A stretch of DNA of 8,350 nt from Candidatus Zhuqueibacterota bacterium (lineage in GTDB: Bacteria; SM23-31): the NCBI GenBank assembly GCA_022562855.1, contig JADFON010000063.1, forward strand, positions 1-8,350, given 5' to 3'. A program made the position numbers and the translations under genes. Each line of letters begins with the position of its first letter. Within the stretch, counting starts at the first letter, position 1. The notes under the pieces are model-generated. The model was given only the letters and a program-made list of their open reading frames with translations. It ran no database searches and was not told where the DNA came from. This document shows positions 1,723 to 8,350 of this stretch, piece by piece.

Positions 1723-2721
1723 CTATTTGATCTTTGCCCTGCCAATATAATTCGTATCGGTCCCGAACCAGATCTCCTGTTTCGGTTGGTGATAGTACAT
1801 GTGACGAACGGTGCCGCCGCCGCTTTCGATGGCGGTATTGCTGATAAATTTCTCAGTTTCGGGATCGAATCCGACAAACATATTGGGTCTGATGCCCGAT
1901 TCAACGTACCAAATTCTACCCTTATCATCGGAAGCCATTCCGTAAGCACGGGCGCCTTCACCGCCTGGAGAAGCCCATTCTTTGAATATTTTGGTTTTCG
2001 GATTATACTGTCCCAGCATTCCCTTTGCATAATCGACATAATAGATCATGCCGTCAGGCGTAATTTCCAACCGTCTCGGTCTTGCGTCCGCCCTTGGGAG
2101 TTCGATCTCTTTTAGTTTCATGGTCTTTGCATCGATAGCGGCAAATTTATTGGTACCGAATAATACTACCCAGGGATTGTCCTGTGCATCGATTTTTATA
2201 CCGTAGGGAAGTCCTCTTTGCGTTGGCACGGTAATAAGGTGAACTTTGCCTGTTTTCGTTTCGAGTTTGCCTATCATGTTACTTCGCTGCATTGTAAACC
2301 AAATGTCGCCTTCGCTGTTAAACACCAGTGTGTGCGGGTCTCGAGCCGCCGGATCGGGCATCGGATATTTGGTTATCTTACCGGTGGCGGGATCGAGTTT
2401 GCCGATGTGCGCCTGCGAGTTCCCAGCATACCATACCATTCCGTCGTCACTAACAATTAGATTGTGAGGTCCAGCGCCGTCGCCAAGATCAAATCGTGTG
2501 AATTTCCCCGTTTCCGGTTCAAGATAAGCTACATAATGAGACCTTTGACCGACAAACCAAACCTTGCCGTCATTCGCGACGAACGGATCGCGGGGTCGAG
2601 AGTTTTCCCACGGTACGAGCCATTCCTTTAATTCAACTGCATCGTCCGCTGCAGTAGTAATTACCGGACTGTCACCGAAAAGCAACAATAGTGATAAAGC
2701 TAATAATAAAATTAAATGCAT
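1723..2721 (-). CDS. Exported seven-bladed beta-propeller of the Vgb ('streptogramin lyase') fold
   Basis: A 332-residue secreted or periplasmic protein. Residues 1-25 form a signal peptide rich in Leu. About seven repeats of roughly 42 residues follow (approx. 40-80, 83-122, 127-167, 169-212, 213-252, 256-300, 303-332). Each has the pattern small-Pro-His/Tyr-x-hydrophobic, D/E-G-x-hydrophobic-W-hydrophobic and a GKL-D-P-x-TGK turn, typical of Vgb-like propellers. Virginiamycin B lyase from Staphylococcus uses His270 and Glu284, spaced 14 residues in one repeat. Here His86, His130 and His307 are followed at +14 by Gly, Met and Thr, and the one Glu in that place (Glu274) pairs with Tyr260. Antibiotic lyase activity is therefore unlikely, despite the usual automatic name. 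The ATG at 2721 is supported by GGGAGG seven bases upstream on the minus strand. It is divergent from the methyltransferase gene and appears richer in G+C than its flanks. Confidence 0.85.
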   Translation of the reverse strand: MHLILLLALSLLLLFGDSPVITTAADDAVELKEWLVPWENSRPRDPFVANDGKVWFVGQRSHYVAYLEPETGKFTRFDLGDGAGPHNLIVSDDGMVWYAGNSQAHIGKLDPATGKITKYPMPDPAARDPHTLVFNSEGDIWFTMQRSNMIGKLETKTGKVHLITVPTQRGLPYGIKIDAQDNPWVVLFGTNKFAAIDAKTMKLKEIELPRADARPRRLEITPDGMIYYVDYAKGMLGQYNPKTKIFKEWASPGGEGARAYGMASDDKGRIWYVESGIRPNMFVGFDPETEKFISNTAIESGGGTVRHMYYHQPKQEIWFGTDTNYIGRAKIK

Positions 2722-2728
2722 AACGCAT

Positions 2729-2734
2729 CCTCCC
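2729..2734 (-). promoter_or_regulatory. Strong Shine-Dalgarno site of the beta-propeller gene
   Basis: The minus strand reads GGGAGG, then seven bases, then the ATG at 2721-2719. It fixes the start just before the signal peptide and is stronger than the ribosome sites of most other genes here. Confidence 0.8.
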
Positions 2735-2795
2735 GCTTTATATATTATTTTTTTGTTATTTGCTGTGGTTTGATTCGATTGTGATGTTATTTCGT

Positions 2796-2811
2796 AATTA
2801 CAATTGTAATT
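2796..2811. promoter_or_regulatory. 16-bp perfect palindrome in divergent intergenic region, candidate operator
   Basis: AATTACAATTGTAATT is identical to its reverse complement. It lies in the 242-base AT-rich region between the divergent propeller and methyltransferase genes, 75 bases upstream of the propeller ATG and about 150 bases upstream of the methyltransferase ATG. The form (TTACAATTGTAA core) suits a dimeric regulator, but no regulator gene is adjacent and AT-rich palindromes can arise by chance. A TACTTTTG at 2931-2938 resembles the Bacteroidetes -7 element (TAnnTTTG), but no matching -33 TTTG is present, so the promoter remains unassigned. Confidence 0.4.
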
Positions 2812-2963
2812 TACACCACTACTTCATTTTATACAATGTTACATTTGAAAAATTCACATTAATGAAGGTTATAAGGTTTGAATTAAAGAAGGCAAGCCGA
2901 ATAAAGTCTCCTTAATCAAAAAACACTTTATACTTTTGATAATTTTCTTTATTTTTAATAATC

Positions 2964-3698
2964 ATGGATTGGTATGAAAAATGGTTCGGGCAGGATTACC
3001 TGGACGTCTATACTCACAGGAGTGAGAAAGAGGCGGAAGAGTTTATCAATACTCTTGAAAAGATTCTGTCACTGCAGCCGGAACAGAAATTACTCGATCT
3101 TTGTTGTGGAACGGGCAGGTATTCCTTGGCATTGGCTCAGCGAGGTTACGTGGTCACGGGTCTGGACTTGTCGTCCCGCTTAATCGACTTTGCTAAGAAA
3201 AGATCGAAAGAACTTGGCGTCAAAGTTGATTTCATTGTCAGGGATATGCGTGATATACCGTTTTCCGGTTATTTTGACGGAATTCTGAATATGTTTACTT
3301 CGTTCGGATATTTTGAAACAGATTCGGAGAACGAAAAGGTTATCATGGCGGCTTCGAATGCTTTAAAAAAAGACGGTTGGTTTGTGCTCGACTATCTTAA
3401 CCGTGAAAATATTATACAAAACTTTCAGGAATTTGATGAACAAAAAAAAGAAAACGTCCTGATTCAGCAGAAGAGAAAACTAAACTTTGACACAAACCGG
3501 ATTGAAAAAGTAATAACTATTACAAGAAATGATTCGACAAAGGAGTATTCCGAATCGGTTAAAATGTATTCTCACGATGATTTGGAACAAATGTACCGTA
3601 TTAATAATATAAGGTTAACGCATAAATTCGGAAATTATGACGGAACACCGCTCGATAACGTTTCACCGAGAGCTATATTGATAGGGAGAAAGATGTGA
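2964..3698 (+). CDS. Class I SAM-dependent methyltransferase, candidate bacillithiol N-methyltransferase
   Basis: A 244-residue soluble methyltransferase with the seven-strand Rossmann fold. Motif I is LLDLCCGTGRYS (43-54), the acidic end of strand 2 is GLDLS (66-70), RDMRDIPF (93-100) is the motif preceding strand 4, FDGILNMFTSFGYF (104-117) is motif II, and LKKDGWFVLDY (134-144) is motif III. The C-terminal half (about 150-244) is a beta-rich cap that probably decides the substrate. The stop codon overlaps the GTG start of bshC by four bases, so the two are translationally coupled and very likely work in one pathway. In Chlorobaculum tepidum a SAM methyltransferase (NmbA) makes N-methyl-bacillithiol; by context this gene is a good candidate for the same job. 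The substrate is inference, and the family is too broad to prove it from motifs. The ATG at 2964 has no clear Shine-Dalgarno site. Confidence 0.9.
   Translation: MDWYEKWFGQDYLDVYTHRSEKEAEEFINTLEKILSLQPEQKLLDLCCGTGRYSLALAQRGYVVTGLDLSSRLIDFAKKRSKELGVKVDFIVRDMRDIPFSGYFDGILNMFTSFGYFETDSENEKVIMAASNALKKDGWFVLDYLNRENIIQNFQEFDEQKKENVLIQQKRKLNFDTNRIEKVITITRNDSTKEYSESVKMYSHDDLEQMYRINNIRLTHKFGNYDGTPLDNVSPRAILIGRKM
3683..3688 (+). promoter_or_regulatory. Shine-Dalgarno site selecting the GTG start of bshC
   Basis: AGGGAG lies inside the last codons of the methyltransferase gene, six bases before the GTG at 3695. The arrangement ATGTGA holds the last Met codon, the GTG start and the TGA stop together, a classic translational-coupling junction. 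Confidence 0.75.
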
Positions 3699-5281
3699 TT
3701 CAATCAGTACCGTACAACCAAATCTCCGGTTATTCAAAATTGTTTCTTGATTATGTCAATGATTATGACCGCGTTCAGGAATTTTTTAACGGAAAATCCG
3801 GAGATAACAGCACATGGACAGATCAAATAAAAAGATGTCGTCAGCGTGATTACAACCGTGATGAACTAATAAATATTCTTTTTAAACAAAACAAAAGCGC
3901 GACGTTAAAAAAGGCGGTCGTAAAACAAATTGAAAAACTTCGTAATCCCGACAGCGTTGTAATTGTTACCGGACAGCAAGCGGGTCTTTTCTGGGGTCCG
4001 CTTTATACGGTCTATAAAGCGCTGACGACGGTAAAAATGGCAGCGACTATCGAGAAACAGTACAAAGTACCTGTTGTCCCGGTGTTTTGGTTAGAAGTAG
4101 ATGACCATGATTTTGATGAAGTCCGGCAGTTTACTATAATGCTTCCCTCTGGTGAAGTAAGAAAGTTTGAGTATGACGACGGTGAAAGCGAAAAATCGGT
4201 CCCGGTTAACAATCGAATTATTACCGATAATATTTCTCCTGTCTTTGATGAAGTTTCCACGTTTTTCGGAACTTCCGAAATCGGCAGAAAAGTGATTAGG
4301 GATTTACGGAAAATTTACCAACCGGGTCGAAGTTTGAGTGAGGCTTTCATTTTATTTTTCCGAAAGTATTTTCCCGGAGTCCCTTTAGTGTTCTTCAATC
4401 CGGCTGACGTCGAAGTAAAACGTATGGCTCACAATTTCTTCCAAAACGCAATTTCCCGGCATGATAACATCCATGAGGAAATCGAAAAACAAACAAAAGA
4501 GTTGGTGCGGATTCAATACAGTCCGCAGGTTGAACTGAGACCGGACGTTTCCCACTTCTTTCATGTAGAGGATGGAGAACGCCGCCGCGTGGATTTGTCA
4601 TTGATTGCTAAGGGGATAAACAAGGAGCATAGCGAAACGTTAAGCGTTGATGTTCTGCTGCGACCGTTGTTGCAGGATTATTTGCTTCCTAATATAGCAT
4701 ATATAGGGGGACCTTCGGAGATATCTTATATAGCGCAATTAAAAGGAGTTTATTCACTACTTGAAATACCTATGCCATTGATTGTACCCCGCTGGAGTGG
4801 TACTATAATCGAACGGAAAGCTCTGAAATTTCTGAAAAAAATTAATTTCGATCCTGTTCGGATTGTCGAAGGTAATGGCAAGGAAATACTTTCTGAGATA
4901 ATTGAGAGCGCTTCCGGGAAGCAATTTCGCGGAAAATTTGAAAAGGCTTACACGCAGTTACGGCAAAGGCTCGATGAAATCAGGGAAATTGGAAAATCAC
5001 TTGATATTTCATTGGTCGGAATGGTGGACAATTCCGAGCAAAAAATGAAATATCAGCTTGATAAGATTGAGGGACGGTATCAGAATGCGCTTCAGGCGGC
5101 TAACAAAATCGCGGCAGACAGGTCTGCCAGGACGATGAATACTATTGTGCCCGGAAACAATATGCAGGAAAGAACCTTTTCAATTTTGAACTATTTGCTG
5201 AGATATGGTAAGGATTTCCCCAAATTTCTTGCTAAAACCGTTTCTGTTCAGACCGATAAACATCATATATTGGAGTATTGA
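3695..5281 (+). CDS. bshC: Bacillithiol synthase BshC (cysteine-adding enzyme)
   Basis: BshC carries out the last core step of bacillithiol synthesis in the cytoplasm, joining L-cysteine to glucosaminyl-malate. The 528 residues match the family's usual length (about 540). Recognisable blocks are VTGQQAGLFWGPLYT (91-105), the VFW...DDHD block (130-139), LLRPLLQDYLLPNIAYIGGP (321-340) followed by EISYIAQL, and the C-terminal QERTFSILNYLLRYG (491-505). Residues about 405-480 are a charged helical region consistent with the family's coiled coil, which mediates dimerisation. The start is GTG at 3695, overlapping the upstream stop by four bases and preceded by AGGGAG; translation from it gives a normal N-terminus (MIQSVPY). 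The stop TGA at 5279-5281 is one base from the bshB1 ATG. Its place between a methyltransferase and the deacetylase indicates one thiol operon. No frameshift or missing block is seen. Confidence 0.96.
   Translation: MIQSVPYNQISGYSKLFLDYVNDYDRVQEFFNGKSGDNSTWTDQIKRCRQRDYNRDELINILFKQNKSATLKKAVVKQIEKLRNPDSVVIVTGQQAGLFWGPLYTVYKALTTVKMAATIEKQYKVPVVPVFWLEVDDHDFDEVRQFTIMLPSGEVRKFEYDDGESEKSVPVNNRIITDNISPVFDEVSTFFGTSEIGRKVIRDLRKIYQPGRSLSEAFILFFRKYFPGVPLVFFNPADVEVKRMAHNFFQNAISRHDNIHEEIEKQTKELVRIQYSPQVELRPDVSHFFHVEDGERRRVDLSLIAKGINKEHSETLSVDVLLRPLLQDYLLPNIAYIGGPSEISYIAQLKGVYSLLEIPMPLIVPRWSGTIIERKALKFLKKINFDPVRIVEGNGKEILSEIIESASGKQFRGKFEKAYTQLRQRLDEIREIGKSLDISLVGMVDNSEQKMKYQLDKIEGRYQNALQAANKIAADRSARTMNTIVPGNNMQERTFSILNYLLRYGKDFPKFLAKTVSVQTDKHHILEY
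5272..5275 (+). promoter_or_regulatory. Shine-Dalgarno site selecting the bshB1 start at 5283
   Basis: GGAG lies seven bases before ATG 5283, inside the end of bshC. An in-frame ATG at 5205 would add 26 residues that only overlap bshC in another frame and do not resemble the family, so 5283 is the better start. Confidence 0.75.
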
Positions 5282-5282
5282 T

Positions 5283-5996
5283 ATGCCTGATGATAAGCGC
5301 GTTGACGTATTAGCCATTGCAGCTCATCCGGACGATGTTGAAATGGGATGCGGGGGTACGGTTGCAAAGCTCGATAAAATGGGATATTCTGTGGGTATAT
5401 TGAATCTGACCAACGGTGAAATCGGGACCCGGGGCACGAAAAACATAAGAAATGAAGAAGCGAAGATCGCCATGAATATTCTGAATGTGAAATTTCTTAC
5501 GATCCTGGATTTGGGGGACGGGCATTTAATGAACGACGAGTCTAATAGAAAAACAGTCGTTCAGGAAATTCGTCACAGCAAGCCTAAAGTTGTTATGGTT
5601 TCTCATAAATTCGACGACCATCCTGACCATGTTCAATGTGCAAGTCTTGTCAAGGACGCGGTATATCTATCCGGAGTGCAAAACTATGTTCGGGACAGCG
5701 AATATCACAGGGTAAAAGGATTGATTTATTATATGTGCAGGGGAGAATTTCACCCCACGTTTATAGTTGATATCACCGACGAATTTGACAAGAAGATGGA
5801 AGCAATTAAAGCGTACGGCTCCCAATTTTATAAAAAAGATTCAAAAGAACCGCAAACCGCACTGAGCGATCCGGAATTTCTCAATATATTTGAGACGAGG
5901 GGGAGGTATTACGGCAGAATGATAGGCTGCAGATACGGTGAACCCTTTTTTGCAAAGTATCCGCCTAAAATAATCGATCCTGTCGCTCTATTTTAA
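5283..5996 (+). CDS. bshB1: Bacillithiol biosynthesis N-deacetylase BshB1 (LmbE/PIG-L family)
   Basis: A zinc-dependent cytoplasmic deacetylase that removes the acetyl group from GlcNAc-malate to give GlcN-malate, the substrate of BshC. With start 5283 it has 237 residues, normal for the family. The zinc site is visible: AHPDD at 14-18 (His15 and Asp18 as ligands, Asp17 the likely catalytic base) and DDHPDH at 111-116 (His116 the third ligand). This matches the His12/Asp15/His113 arrangement of the Bacillus enzyme with a shift of three. NLTNGEIGTRGT (41-52), with the following Arg56 and Glu-Glu-Ala (58-60), is the family's second conserved block. The central LGDG (77-80) and the C-terminal ETRGRYYG (204-211) also fit BshB1. 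It follows bshC by one base and closes the operon; 120 bases separate it from ffh. Other LmbE deacetylases (mycothiol or GlcNAc-PI type) are possible in principle, but the partner bshC makes the assignment firm. Confidence 0.93.
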   Translation: MPDDKRVDVLAIAAHPDDVEMGCGGTVAKLDKMGYSVGILNLTNGEIGTRGTKNIRNEEAKIAMNILNVKFLTILDLGDGHLMNDESNRKTVVQEIRHSKPKVVMVSHKFDDHPDHVQCASLVKDAVYLSGVQNYVRDSEYHRVKGLIYYMCRGEFHPTFIVDITDEFDKKMEAIKAYGSQFYKKDSKEPQTALSDPEFLNIFETRGRYYGRMIGCRYGEPFFAKYPPKIIDPVALF

Positions 5997-6029
5997 GAAG
6001 GGTGAATTTGTAAATGAAGATACGGTTTA

Positions 6030-6059
6030 TTGACATAAAACTGTTTGGAATTAAATAAT
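6030..6059 (+). promoter_or_regulatory. Candidate sigma-70-type promoter for ffh
   Basis: TTGACA (6030-6035), an 18-base spacer, then AATAAT (6054-6059, five of six matches to the -10 consensus), all in the 120-base gap between bshB1 and ffh. It suggests ffh is transcribed independently of the thiol operon. The -10 lies in AT-rich sequence where chance matches are common, and I see no GC-rich terminator after bshB1. Confidence 0.45.
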
Positions 6060-6116
6060 TATTTATTTACATTATCAAGCTTATATCCATGATAAATATT
6101 TGTAAGATTTGAGATT

Positions 6117-7451
6117 ATGTTTGGCGAATTAACAGAAAAATTAGAATCCATCATAAAGAAGCTTCGCGGTCTGGGACGGATTACGGAAAAAAATATCGAG
6201 GAGTCTCTACGTTCTATAAGGCTGGTTCTTTTAGAAGCGGATGTTAATTACAAGGTAGCAAAAGAGTTTATAGAGGGAGTCAAAGAAAAGGCGACCGGGC
6301 AGGAAGTTTTAAAAAGTATCTCACCCGCACAGCAGATAATAAAAATAATTTACGATGAATTGACCAAATTACTCGGGGAGCCTTTCCGTGATATAGAGAT
6401 TCAGCCGACTTCCCCAACCATCATTATGGTTGTTGGTCTGCAAGGTTCGGGAAAGACGACATTCTGCGGAAAATTGGCGCGTTATTTTCAGAAAAAAGGC
6501 AAAAAACCGTTTCTTGCCTCTGTTGATGTATACCGACCCGCAGCAAGAAAACAGCTTGAAGTTCTCGGAAAATCTCTTGACATTCCGGTCTTTGGTATGG
6601 ACTCAAACGAGCCAAAGACTATTGCAAAAGAGTCTTTAAAGGAATGTAAAAGGATAAAAGGAGATATATTAATTCTCGATACGGCAGGCAGACTGCATGT
6701 AGACAATGAAATGATGGAAGAGCTTTCCGGATTAAATAGAGAGCTAAAACCACACGAGATTTTCTTTGTCGCCGACGGTATGACGGGTCAGGATGCAGTT
6801 AATTCCGCTTCATCATTCCTTGAGCACGTTGACTTCACCGGTGTTGTTCTCACAAAGCTTGATGGCGATGCAAGGGGCGGCGCCGCTCTTTCCATTAGCG
6901 CTGTAACCCACAAACCGATCAGGTTTATATCTACAGGTGAAAAATTAGCCGATTTAGAGCCGTTTCATCCTGAAAGACTGGCGTCCCGGATTCTTGGAAT
7001 GGGTGATATCGTTTCTCTTGTTGAGAAGGCGCAGGAATCGGTAGATACAAAAGAAGCCCAGGAACTTGAAAAGAGATTAACACATTCTGAATTCACGTTT
7101 GATGATTTCAAGGAACAATTGCATCATCTGAAAAATATGGGTCCCCTGGATAAGCTTGCGGAAATGATTCCTGGCGCTCGCAACATGGGTATTAAGGGGA
7201 TGCAAATGGATGAAGGAGCTTTGAAGAGAACAGAGGCAATAATAAATTCAATGACTCCTTATGAAAGAATAACGCCGAAAATAATCAACGGAAGCCGCCG
7301 CAAAAGAATAGCGCTTGGAAGCGGGTGCTCTGTTCAGGATATTAACAGACTGCTTAATCAGTTTTCGCAAATGCAAAAGATGATTAAGAACTTTTCAAGA
7401 TCCCGTTCTGCCATGAATTCAATGGCAAACCAGTTTTTTGCCGCGAATTAA
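6117..7451 (+). CDS. ffh: Signal recognition particle protein Ffh (SRP54 GTPase)
   Basis: Ffh binds 4.5S RNA and signal sequences on ribosome-nascent chains and delivers them to the receptor FtsY at the inner membrane. The 444 residues show the full three-domain order. The N domain (1-90) contains the LLEADVN motif (38-44). The G domain (about 100-297) has P-loop GLQGSGKTT (107-115), SVDVYRPAA (135-143), DTAGR (188-192), TKLDGDARGG (246-255) and ISTGEKLADLEPF (271-283). The Met-rich M domain (about 325-435) carries the RNA-binding RRKRIALGSG (394-403) and the following NRLLNQF helix. Length and all catalytic motifs are normal. The ATG at 6117 begins the standard MFGELTEKLE N-terminus but has only a weak ribosome site. 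It is followed 97 bases later by rpsP, a gene order seen in many bacteria. The 4.5S RNA gene is not recognisable in the window. Confidence 0.98.
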   Translation: MFGELTEKLESIIKKLRGLGRITEKNIEESLRSIRLVLLEADVNYKVAKEFIEGVKEKATGQEVLKSISPAQQIIKIIYDELTKLLGEPFRDIEIQPTSPTIIMVVGLQGSGKTTFCGKLARYFQKKGKKPFLASVDVYRPAARKQLEVLGKSLDIPVFGMDSNEPKTIAKESLKECKRIKGDILILDTAGRLHVDNEMMEELSGLNRELKPHEIFFVADGMTGQDAVNSASSFLEHVDFTGVVLTKLDGDARGGAALSISAVTHKPIRFISTGEKLADLEPFHPERLASRILGMGDIVSLVEKAQESVDTKEAQELEKRLTHSEFTFDDFKEQLHHLKNMGPLDKLAEMIPGARNMGIKGMQMDEGALKRTEAIINSMTPYERITPKIINGSRRKRIALGSGCSVQDINRLLNQFSQMQKMIKNFSRSRSAMNSMANQFFAAN

Positions 7452-7548: not shown

Positions 7549-8350
7549 GTGGCAACGAAAATACGACTTGCGAGACTGGGAAGAAAAAAGAAACCGTTTT
7601 ATAGAATCATGGTGACCGACAGCCGTGCTCCCAGGGACGGCAGGCATGTGGAGCAAATCGGATATTATAATCCTTTAAAAAATCCAAAAGAAGTAGAAGT
7701 TAAACGTGAAAGAGCTTTGCATTGGTTGAGCCAGGGAGCAGAGTTGACGTTTGCCGCCCGTAATCTTTTGTCGGGTCAAGGAATTCTTCTGGAGTTGGAA
7801 TTGAGAAGACAAAACAAGACCGAAGACGAAATAAAAGAAGAACTTCAAAAATTTGCTTTTGTGCAAGAGCTTAAATTGAAAAACCGGGCAAAAAAGAAAA
7901 AAGTGGAAGTTGGAGCAAAGGCAAAAATGAGTGAAACGGAAGCTGTGGCACAAGAAGAAACAACGACTGTCGCAGAAGAAGCTGAAATAAGCAATGAAAA
8001 AGTTGCAGTGGATACGGAAACCGCTATTGGAGTAGAAACCGAAGCAGCCCCGGAAGAAGCGTCGGCAAAATCAGAGAAGGATACGTCGGAAGAAACGGAA
8101 ACAAAAGATGAGCCGGTGGTAGAAGCAGTGCAGGAAGGTGAAAGCGATTCGGGAACGGAGTCTGCCGGGGAAGCCGTTGTAACAGAAACTGAGGCTGAAA
8201 TATCAGAAACCTCTGAAGCTGTGAGCGGAGAACCTGAAACAGCGGCAGAAGCCGACCAAACTACGGAAACCGCCGCGGAAGAATCGGTGGAGAATTCGGG
8301 AGATTCTGCAGAAGATAAAACAGAAGATAAAACAGAAGAAACCCAGGCAG
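7549..8350 (+). CDS. rpsP: 30S ribosomal protein S16 with long acidic C-terminal extension (3' end outside window)
   Basis: S16 is an early-binding protein of the 30S subunit, needed for folding of the 16S rRNA 5' domain. Residues 1-85 are a normal S16: TKIRLARLGRKKKPFYRI (3-20), DSRAPRDGRHVEQIGYYNPL (24-43), ERALHWLSQGA (54-64) and the RNLLSGQGILL end (71-81). The core is followed by a charged helix (about 88-112), a basic patch RAKKKK (113-118), and from about 127 an extension with no stop before the window edge. Of the 141 tail residues seen, 47 are Asp or Glu and 6 are Lys, with no Arg, aromatic or Cys residue. S16 is often only 80-90 residues; FCB-group proteins can be longer, but this one exceeds 267. 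The start is GTG with an AAGGAG site. It follows ffh. The genes that often come next (rimM, trmD, rplS) are not in the window. Confidence 0.95.
   Translation, partial: MATKIRLARLGRKKKPFYRIMVTDSRAPRDGRHVEQIGYYNPLKNPKEVEVKRERALHWLSQGAELTFAARNLLSGQGILLELELRRQNKTEDEIKEELQKFAFVQELKLKNRAKKKKVEVGAKAKMSETEAVAQEETTTVAEEAEISNEKVAVDTETAIGVETEAAPEEASAKSEKDTSEETETKDEPVVEAVQEGESDSGTESAGEAVVTETEAEISETSEAVSGEPETAAEADQTTETAAEESVENSGDSAEDKTEDKTEETQA
8311..8334 (+). repeat. Two tandem copies of a 12-base unit in the rpsP tail
   Basis: GAAGATAAAACA occurs twice in a row (8311-8322 and 8323-8334), encoding EDKT twice, followed by a diverging GAAGAA. It suggests that the acidic tail grows by in-frame slippage or duplication. 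Confidence 0.8.

Follow-up and report, generated by a model that had tools for sequence, protein, structure and literature searches.

A putative nmbA-bshC-bshB1 operon for the final steps of N-methyl-bacillithiol synthesis

Three genes on the plus strand of the window (the whole 8,350-nucleotide stretch of DNA analysed here) very probably form an operon that completes the synthesis of N-methyl-bacillithiol (N-Me-BSH), in which an orthologue of the methyltransferase NmbA would methylate the cysteine amine of bacillithiol (BSH) and N-Me-BSH would serve as the cell's thiol. NmbA and N-Me-BSH are known from green sulfur bacteria, and the enzyme, its product, its structure and its wide distribution (1765 species) have already been published (2018: PMC6282198; 2025: PMC12719100), and the window operon is a well-supported member of this known pathway. 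The modest additions made here are the placement of nmbA as the first operon gene, in the window and in many other families, and a set of three residues (R19, K182 and E197, window numbering) that separates NmbA from its sister clade.

In the proposed route, BshA, encoded elsewhere in the genome, would join UDP-GlcNAc and malate, BshB1 would remove the acetyl group, and BshC would add cysteine to give BSH. The NmbA orthologue would then transfer a methyl group from SAM to the cysteine amine of reduced BSH, yielding N-Me-BSH.

Arrangement of the three genes and completeness of the pathway

The features of the operon are the following:

2810..2963, + strand: upstream region, putative operon promoter; weak, the sigma-70-like match at 2810-2837 being no better than chance
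2964..3698, + strand: nmbA, predicted SAM-dependent bacillithiol N-methyltransferase orthologue; ATG start, 244 aa; 9RI2 match, NmbA clade, R19/K182/E197
3683..3697, + strand: Shine-Dalgarno-like AGGGAG and the overlapping bshC GTG, in the end of nmbA; direct sequence reading
3695..5281, + strand: bshC, bacillithiol biosynthesis cysteine-adding enzyme; GTG start, 528 aa; TIGR03998, PF10079, PF24850
5283..5996, + strand: bshB1, GlcNAc-malate deacetylase; ATG start, 237 aa; TIGR04001, PIG-L family

The open reading frames bore out the initial annotation to the base: its gene calls are right, and its 4-nt nmbA/bshC overlap and 1-nt bshC-bshB1 gap are exact. The GTG start codon of bshC sits in the last codons of nmbA (AGATGTGATT), with the AGGGAG element about 6 nt 5′ of it, and the ATG of bshB1 at 5283 lies 1 nt past the bshC stop codon; an earlier in-frame ATG of bshB1, at 5205, falls within bshC. 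The overlap of the nmbA and bshC reading frames implies co-transcription, and the translation of nmbA and bshC is probably coupled. The description of the modifying gene as directly fused to the core operon had to be given up: the ORFs are separate, overlapping and abutting only, and a fusion of nmbA to bshC is ruled out. Promoter and terminator scans returned nothing clearly over chance (14 promoter-like sites in 2600-6200, with 10.1 ± 2.8 expected); the operon promoter probably lies in 2810..2963.

BshC and BshB1 score as equivalogs in NCBIfam (TIGR03998, 423.9 bits with a cut-off of 265.8, and TIGR04001, 263.8 bits with a cut-off of 182.5, respectively). The window genome shares with Bacillus subtilis the same three core enzymes, BshA, BshB1 and BshC, whereas its operon carries an extra methyltransferase and has another gene order; in B. 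subtilis, bshB1 and bshA lie together and bshC lies separately. The bshA gene is found on another contig of the source genome (G000:C241, 533.5 bits with a cut-off of 273.7), which is 2.5 Mb in size and 79.6% complete and in which the window is contig C69. Thus bshA, bshB and bshC are all present. The genome also encodes a full-length YpdA-like bacillithiol disulfide reductase that scores just under its cut-off (333.1 bits compared to 339.9). With bshA on C241 and this reductase, the predicted gene set of the N-methyl-bacillithiol pathway is complete in the genome. A search for BrxA/B (PF06491) found no member in the genome, which carries little weight at 79.6% completeness.

On either side of the operon, the window contains other genes. 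On the minus strand, divergent from nmbA, 1723-2721 encodes a beta-propeller of the Virginiamycin B lyase family that probably has a signal peptide; it scores far under the NCBIfam cut-offs of true Vgb resistance enzymes. A ribosomal protein S16-like ORF, named by eye, lies 3′ of ffh at 7549-8349 on the plus strand; its C-terminal tail is long, rich in Glu and Ala, and continues past the contig end.

Identity of the methyltransferase

Generic Pfam domains identify the first protein of the operon as a class I SAM methyltransferase, and no NCBIfam equivalog scored above its cut-off. In a search of the PDB, its top sequence match was Chlorobaculum tepidum NmbA (CtNmbA; CT1040, N-methyl-bacillithiol synthase A, PDB 9RI2; 266 aa), with an E value of 2.7e-44 over residues 2-242 of 244 and twice the bits of the runner-up, 1WZN, which matched the N-terminal part only (E 2.1e-20). 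BLASTP gave 36% identity to CtNmbA over 248 columns. By the published definition of CT1040 homologues (E ≤ 1e-20, coverage > 80%, identity > 25%), the window protein counts as an NmbA along its full length. The two proteins have the same motifs, SAM-binding motif I (hydrophobic-LD-x-x-CGxGR) reading LLDLCCGTGRY in the window protein and VLDIACGAGRH in CtNmbA, both keep R19, K182 and E197, and both genomes contain bshA, bshB and bshC.

The AlphaFold2 model of the window protein has a mean pLDDT of 93.1 and its best Foldseek match is also 9RI2. In VIA-align, the score of 9RI2 (Z 26.8) is equalled by methyltransferases that have this fold but are not NmbA, namely 3D2L (Z 27.4), the cypemycin N-terminal methyltransferase CypM (7WZG) and others, so that the fold gives the class and not the substrate. 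The assignment of a substrate by fold alone was therefore dropped. CypM and the 3D2L/1WZN types share with the window protein the fold, a four-strand cap and a comparable structural Z, but are only about 20% identical to it and have a different substrate or none known. The cap domain has an unusual strand arrangement in the NmbA crystal structure, and AlphaFold is reported to mis-predict the CtNmbA cap (PMC12719100), so that the cap strands of the AlphaFold2 model of the window protein are provisional.

NmbA-like genes (E ≤ 1e-25) and bshC were collected from 386 genomes across many families, and a tree of 68 methyltransferase proteins was built. The window protein falls in an NmbA clade of 40 rows, whose support of 92/89 is good but not top. 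This clade comprises CtNmbA, all 21 bshC-adjacent methyltransferases including that of the window, 17 more whose genomes carry bshC and one encoded on a Bacteroidota contig; it contains no methyltransferase from the genomes in which bshC was not detected. The position of CtNmbA inside the clade is without resolution. R19, K182 and E197 are each found in 40/40 members, CtNmbA and the window protein included.

As the PDB match, BLASTP, the tree, the residues and Foldseek all agree, the window protein belongs with NmbA rather than among methyltransferases known to act on a different substrate, which supports the initial annotation. We conclude on sequence grounds that it is an NmbA orthologue, and it would accordingly methylate BSH with SAM. 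This reading is weakened somewhat by an identity to the characterised enzyme of just 36% and by the branch support of the NmbA clade.

The NmbA enzymes of C. tepidum and Paenibacillus polymyxa act on reduced BSH, whose cysteine amine they methylate with SAM; they do not accept BSSB and give no product with glycine or GSH (PMC12719100). A CT1040 deletion mutant makes no N-Me-BSH but retains BSH (PMC6282198). The initial annotation had left open whether bacillithiol is methylated on the cysteine amine or elsewhere. The methylation of bacillithiol itself is backed by NmbA orthology and by the presence of bshA in the genome, and, because the characterised enzymes methylate the cysteine amine (PMC6282198, PMC12719100), this site is more likely than another position. 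A methyltransferase of the bacillithiol operon that acted at a different point, on another position of BSH, to form N,N-dimethyl-BSH, or on a precursor (GlcN-malate or cysteine), would find some precedent in the methylation by CtNmbA in vitro of the secondary amine of a BSH-derived by-product (PMC12719100). Such an activity is nonetheless quite unlikely here, since the window protein retains every residue that is invariant in the NmbA clade, the cap region included. Assuming methylation of the cysteine amine of BSH, and extrapolating from C. tepidum, we infer that N-Me-BSH would be the main redox buffer of this organism.

Conservation of the gene order

An NmbA-like gene is present in 68 of the 386 genomes and bshC in 79; the two occur together in 40 (Fisher p 4e-15, an optimistic value as the genomes are not phylogenetically independent). 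In 19 of these 40, the methyltransferase gene immediately precedes bshC on the same strand. When the window and two Planctomycetota contigs are included, 16 of 21 adjacent loci have the order nmbA-bshC-bshB1, which is followed by bshA in 13 of these 16; the 4-nt nmbA/bshC overlap recurs in 7 of the 21, according to mechanical ORF calls. The same order is found in many other families at 31-48% methyltransferase identity, and the arrangement is thus not due to chance. The adjacency noted in the window is accordingly kept in relatives that span many families and two or more phyla, Planctomycetota among them. The genes of C. tepidum are, in contrast, far apart (nmbA, bshA, bshB and bshC are CT1040, CT0548, CT1419 and CT1558, respectively; PMC12719100), whereas here nmbA heads the bshC-bshB1 operon.

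These data bear on the reading in which the window protein is a general class I methyltransferase with an unrelated substrate that came to lie 5′ of bshC by happenstance. Its generic Pfam domains, the lack of an NCBIfam equivalog above cut-off and the several methyltransferases that equal 9RI2 in VIA-align Z would all suit such a protein, but considering (i) the rank of NmbA as top sequence match, at double the bit score of the runner-up, (ii) the adjacency in 19/40 genomes and the two Planctomycetota loci, and (iii) the placement of the protein in the NmbA clade, we find this reading barely credible.

The window's phylum is represented by six genomes. In the window's family, G002 has the same three-gene operon with a methyltransferase 48% identical to that of the window, and in G001 a contig ends in a fragment of bshC that is not preceded by nmbA. 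In the window's class, NmbA was not detected in G004 and G005, both of which have bshC, in G005 as bshC-bshB1. That bshC occurs without a detected nmbA in G001, G004 and G005 speaks against the proposed reading; the lineage thus varies in nmbA content, as others do (PMC6282198).

The conservation of the operon across families provides independent genomic evidence for the functional link between NmbA and bacillithiol, for which the earlier case drew on a single mutant, on two enzymes in purified form and on gene content (PMC6282198, PMC12719100). The window operon also predicts that N-Me-BSH is made in a phylum that is small and has been little sampled. The conserved nmbA-bshC cluster appears to have been little remarked on so far: the words operon, cluster and neighbourhood are absent from the text of the 2018 study (PMC6282198), the word operon is absent from that of 2025 (PMC12719100), and a literature search that left supplements and subscription journals aside found nothing relevant on a bshC-bshB1-methyltransferase gene cluster.

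Signature residues and the sister clade

The clade neighbouring NmbA in the tree has 21 rows (support 91/86). It holds every one of the 14 methyltransferases whose genomes gave no bshC hit; six more belong to genomes that do carry bshC, three of these six being second copies, and the last row is an ATP-grasp fusion protein of G001. Of 20 rows of this clade, one has R19 and none has K182 or E197. This signature was defined in the present analysis and not taken from the literature, and as the same residues also fed the building of the tree, they characterise the clade and do not prove it independently. In the AlphaFold2 model, the N-terminal segment contains R19, the strand 179-188 contains K182 and the strand 191-200 contains E197. 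Judged against the published topology, the three residues would belong to the cap over the substrate site, where they may contact bacillithiol. If assays agree, they could serve as a simple sequence test that tells true NmbA from look-alike methyltransferases.

It is conceivable, although we lean slightly against it, that nmbA-bshC(-bshB1-bshA) forms a cassette, either ancient or mobilised more than once, and that the sister clade, without R19, K182 and E197, methylates a different acceptor. If the cassette reading is true, many phyla make the methylated thiol as a single unit; if the acceptor of the sister clade differs, counts of N-Me-BSH producers derived from homology only are somewhat too high.

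Sister-clade genes from genomes without detected bshC include L131:3271-3999, L132:3124-3861 and L137:2256-3008, and such genomes include those of family f16 (1.4-1.7 Mb). Three other members of this clade (L150:1237-2994, L141:1045-2829 and L142:1659-3176) carry about 220-350 extra N-terminal residues with no Pfam match. In the fusion from G001, of the window's own family, an NmbA-like methyltransferase domain is joined to a D-Ala-D-Ala-ligase-like ATP-grasp domain (L028:241-2268).
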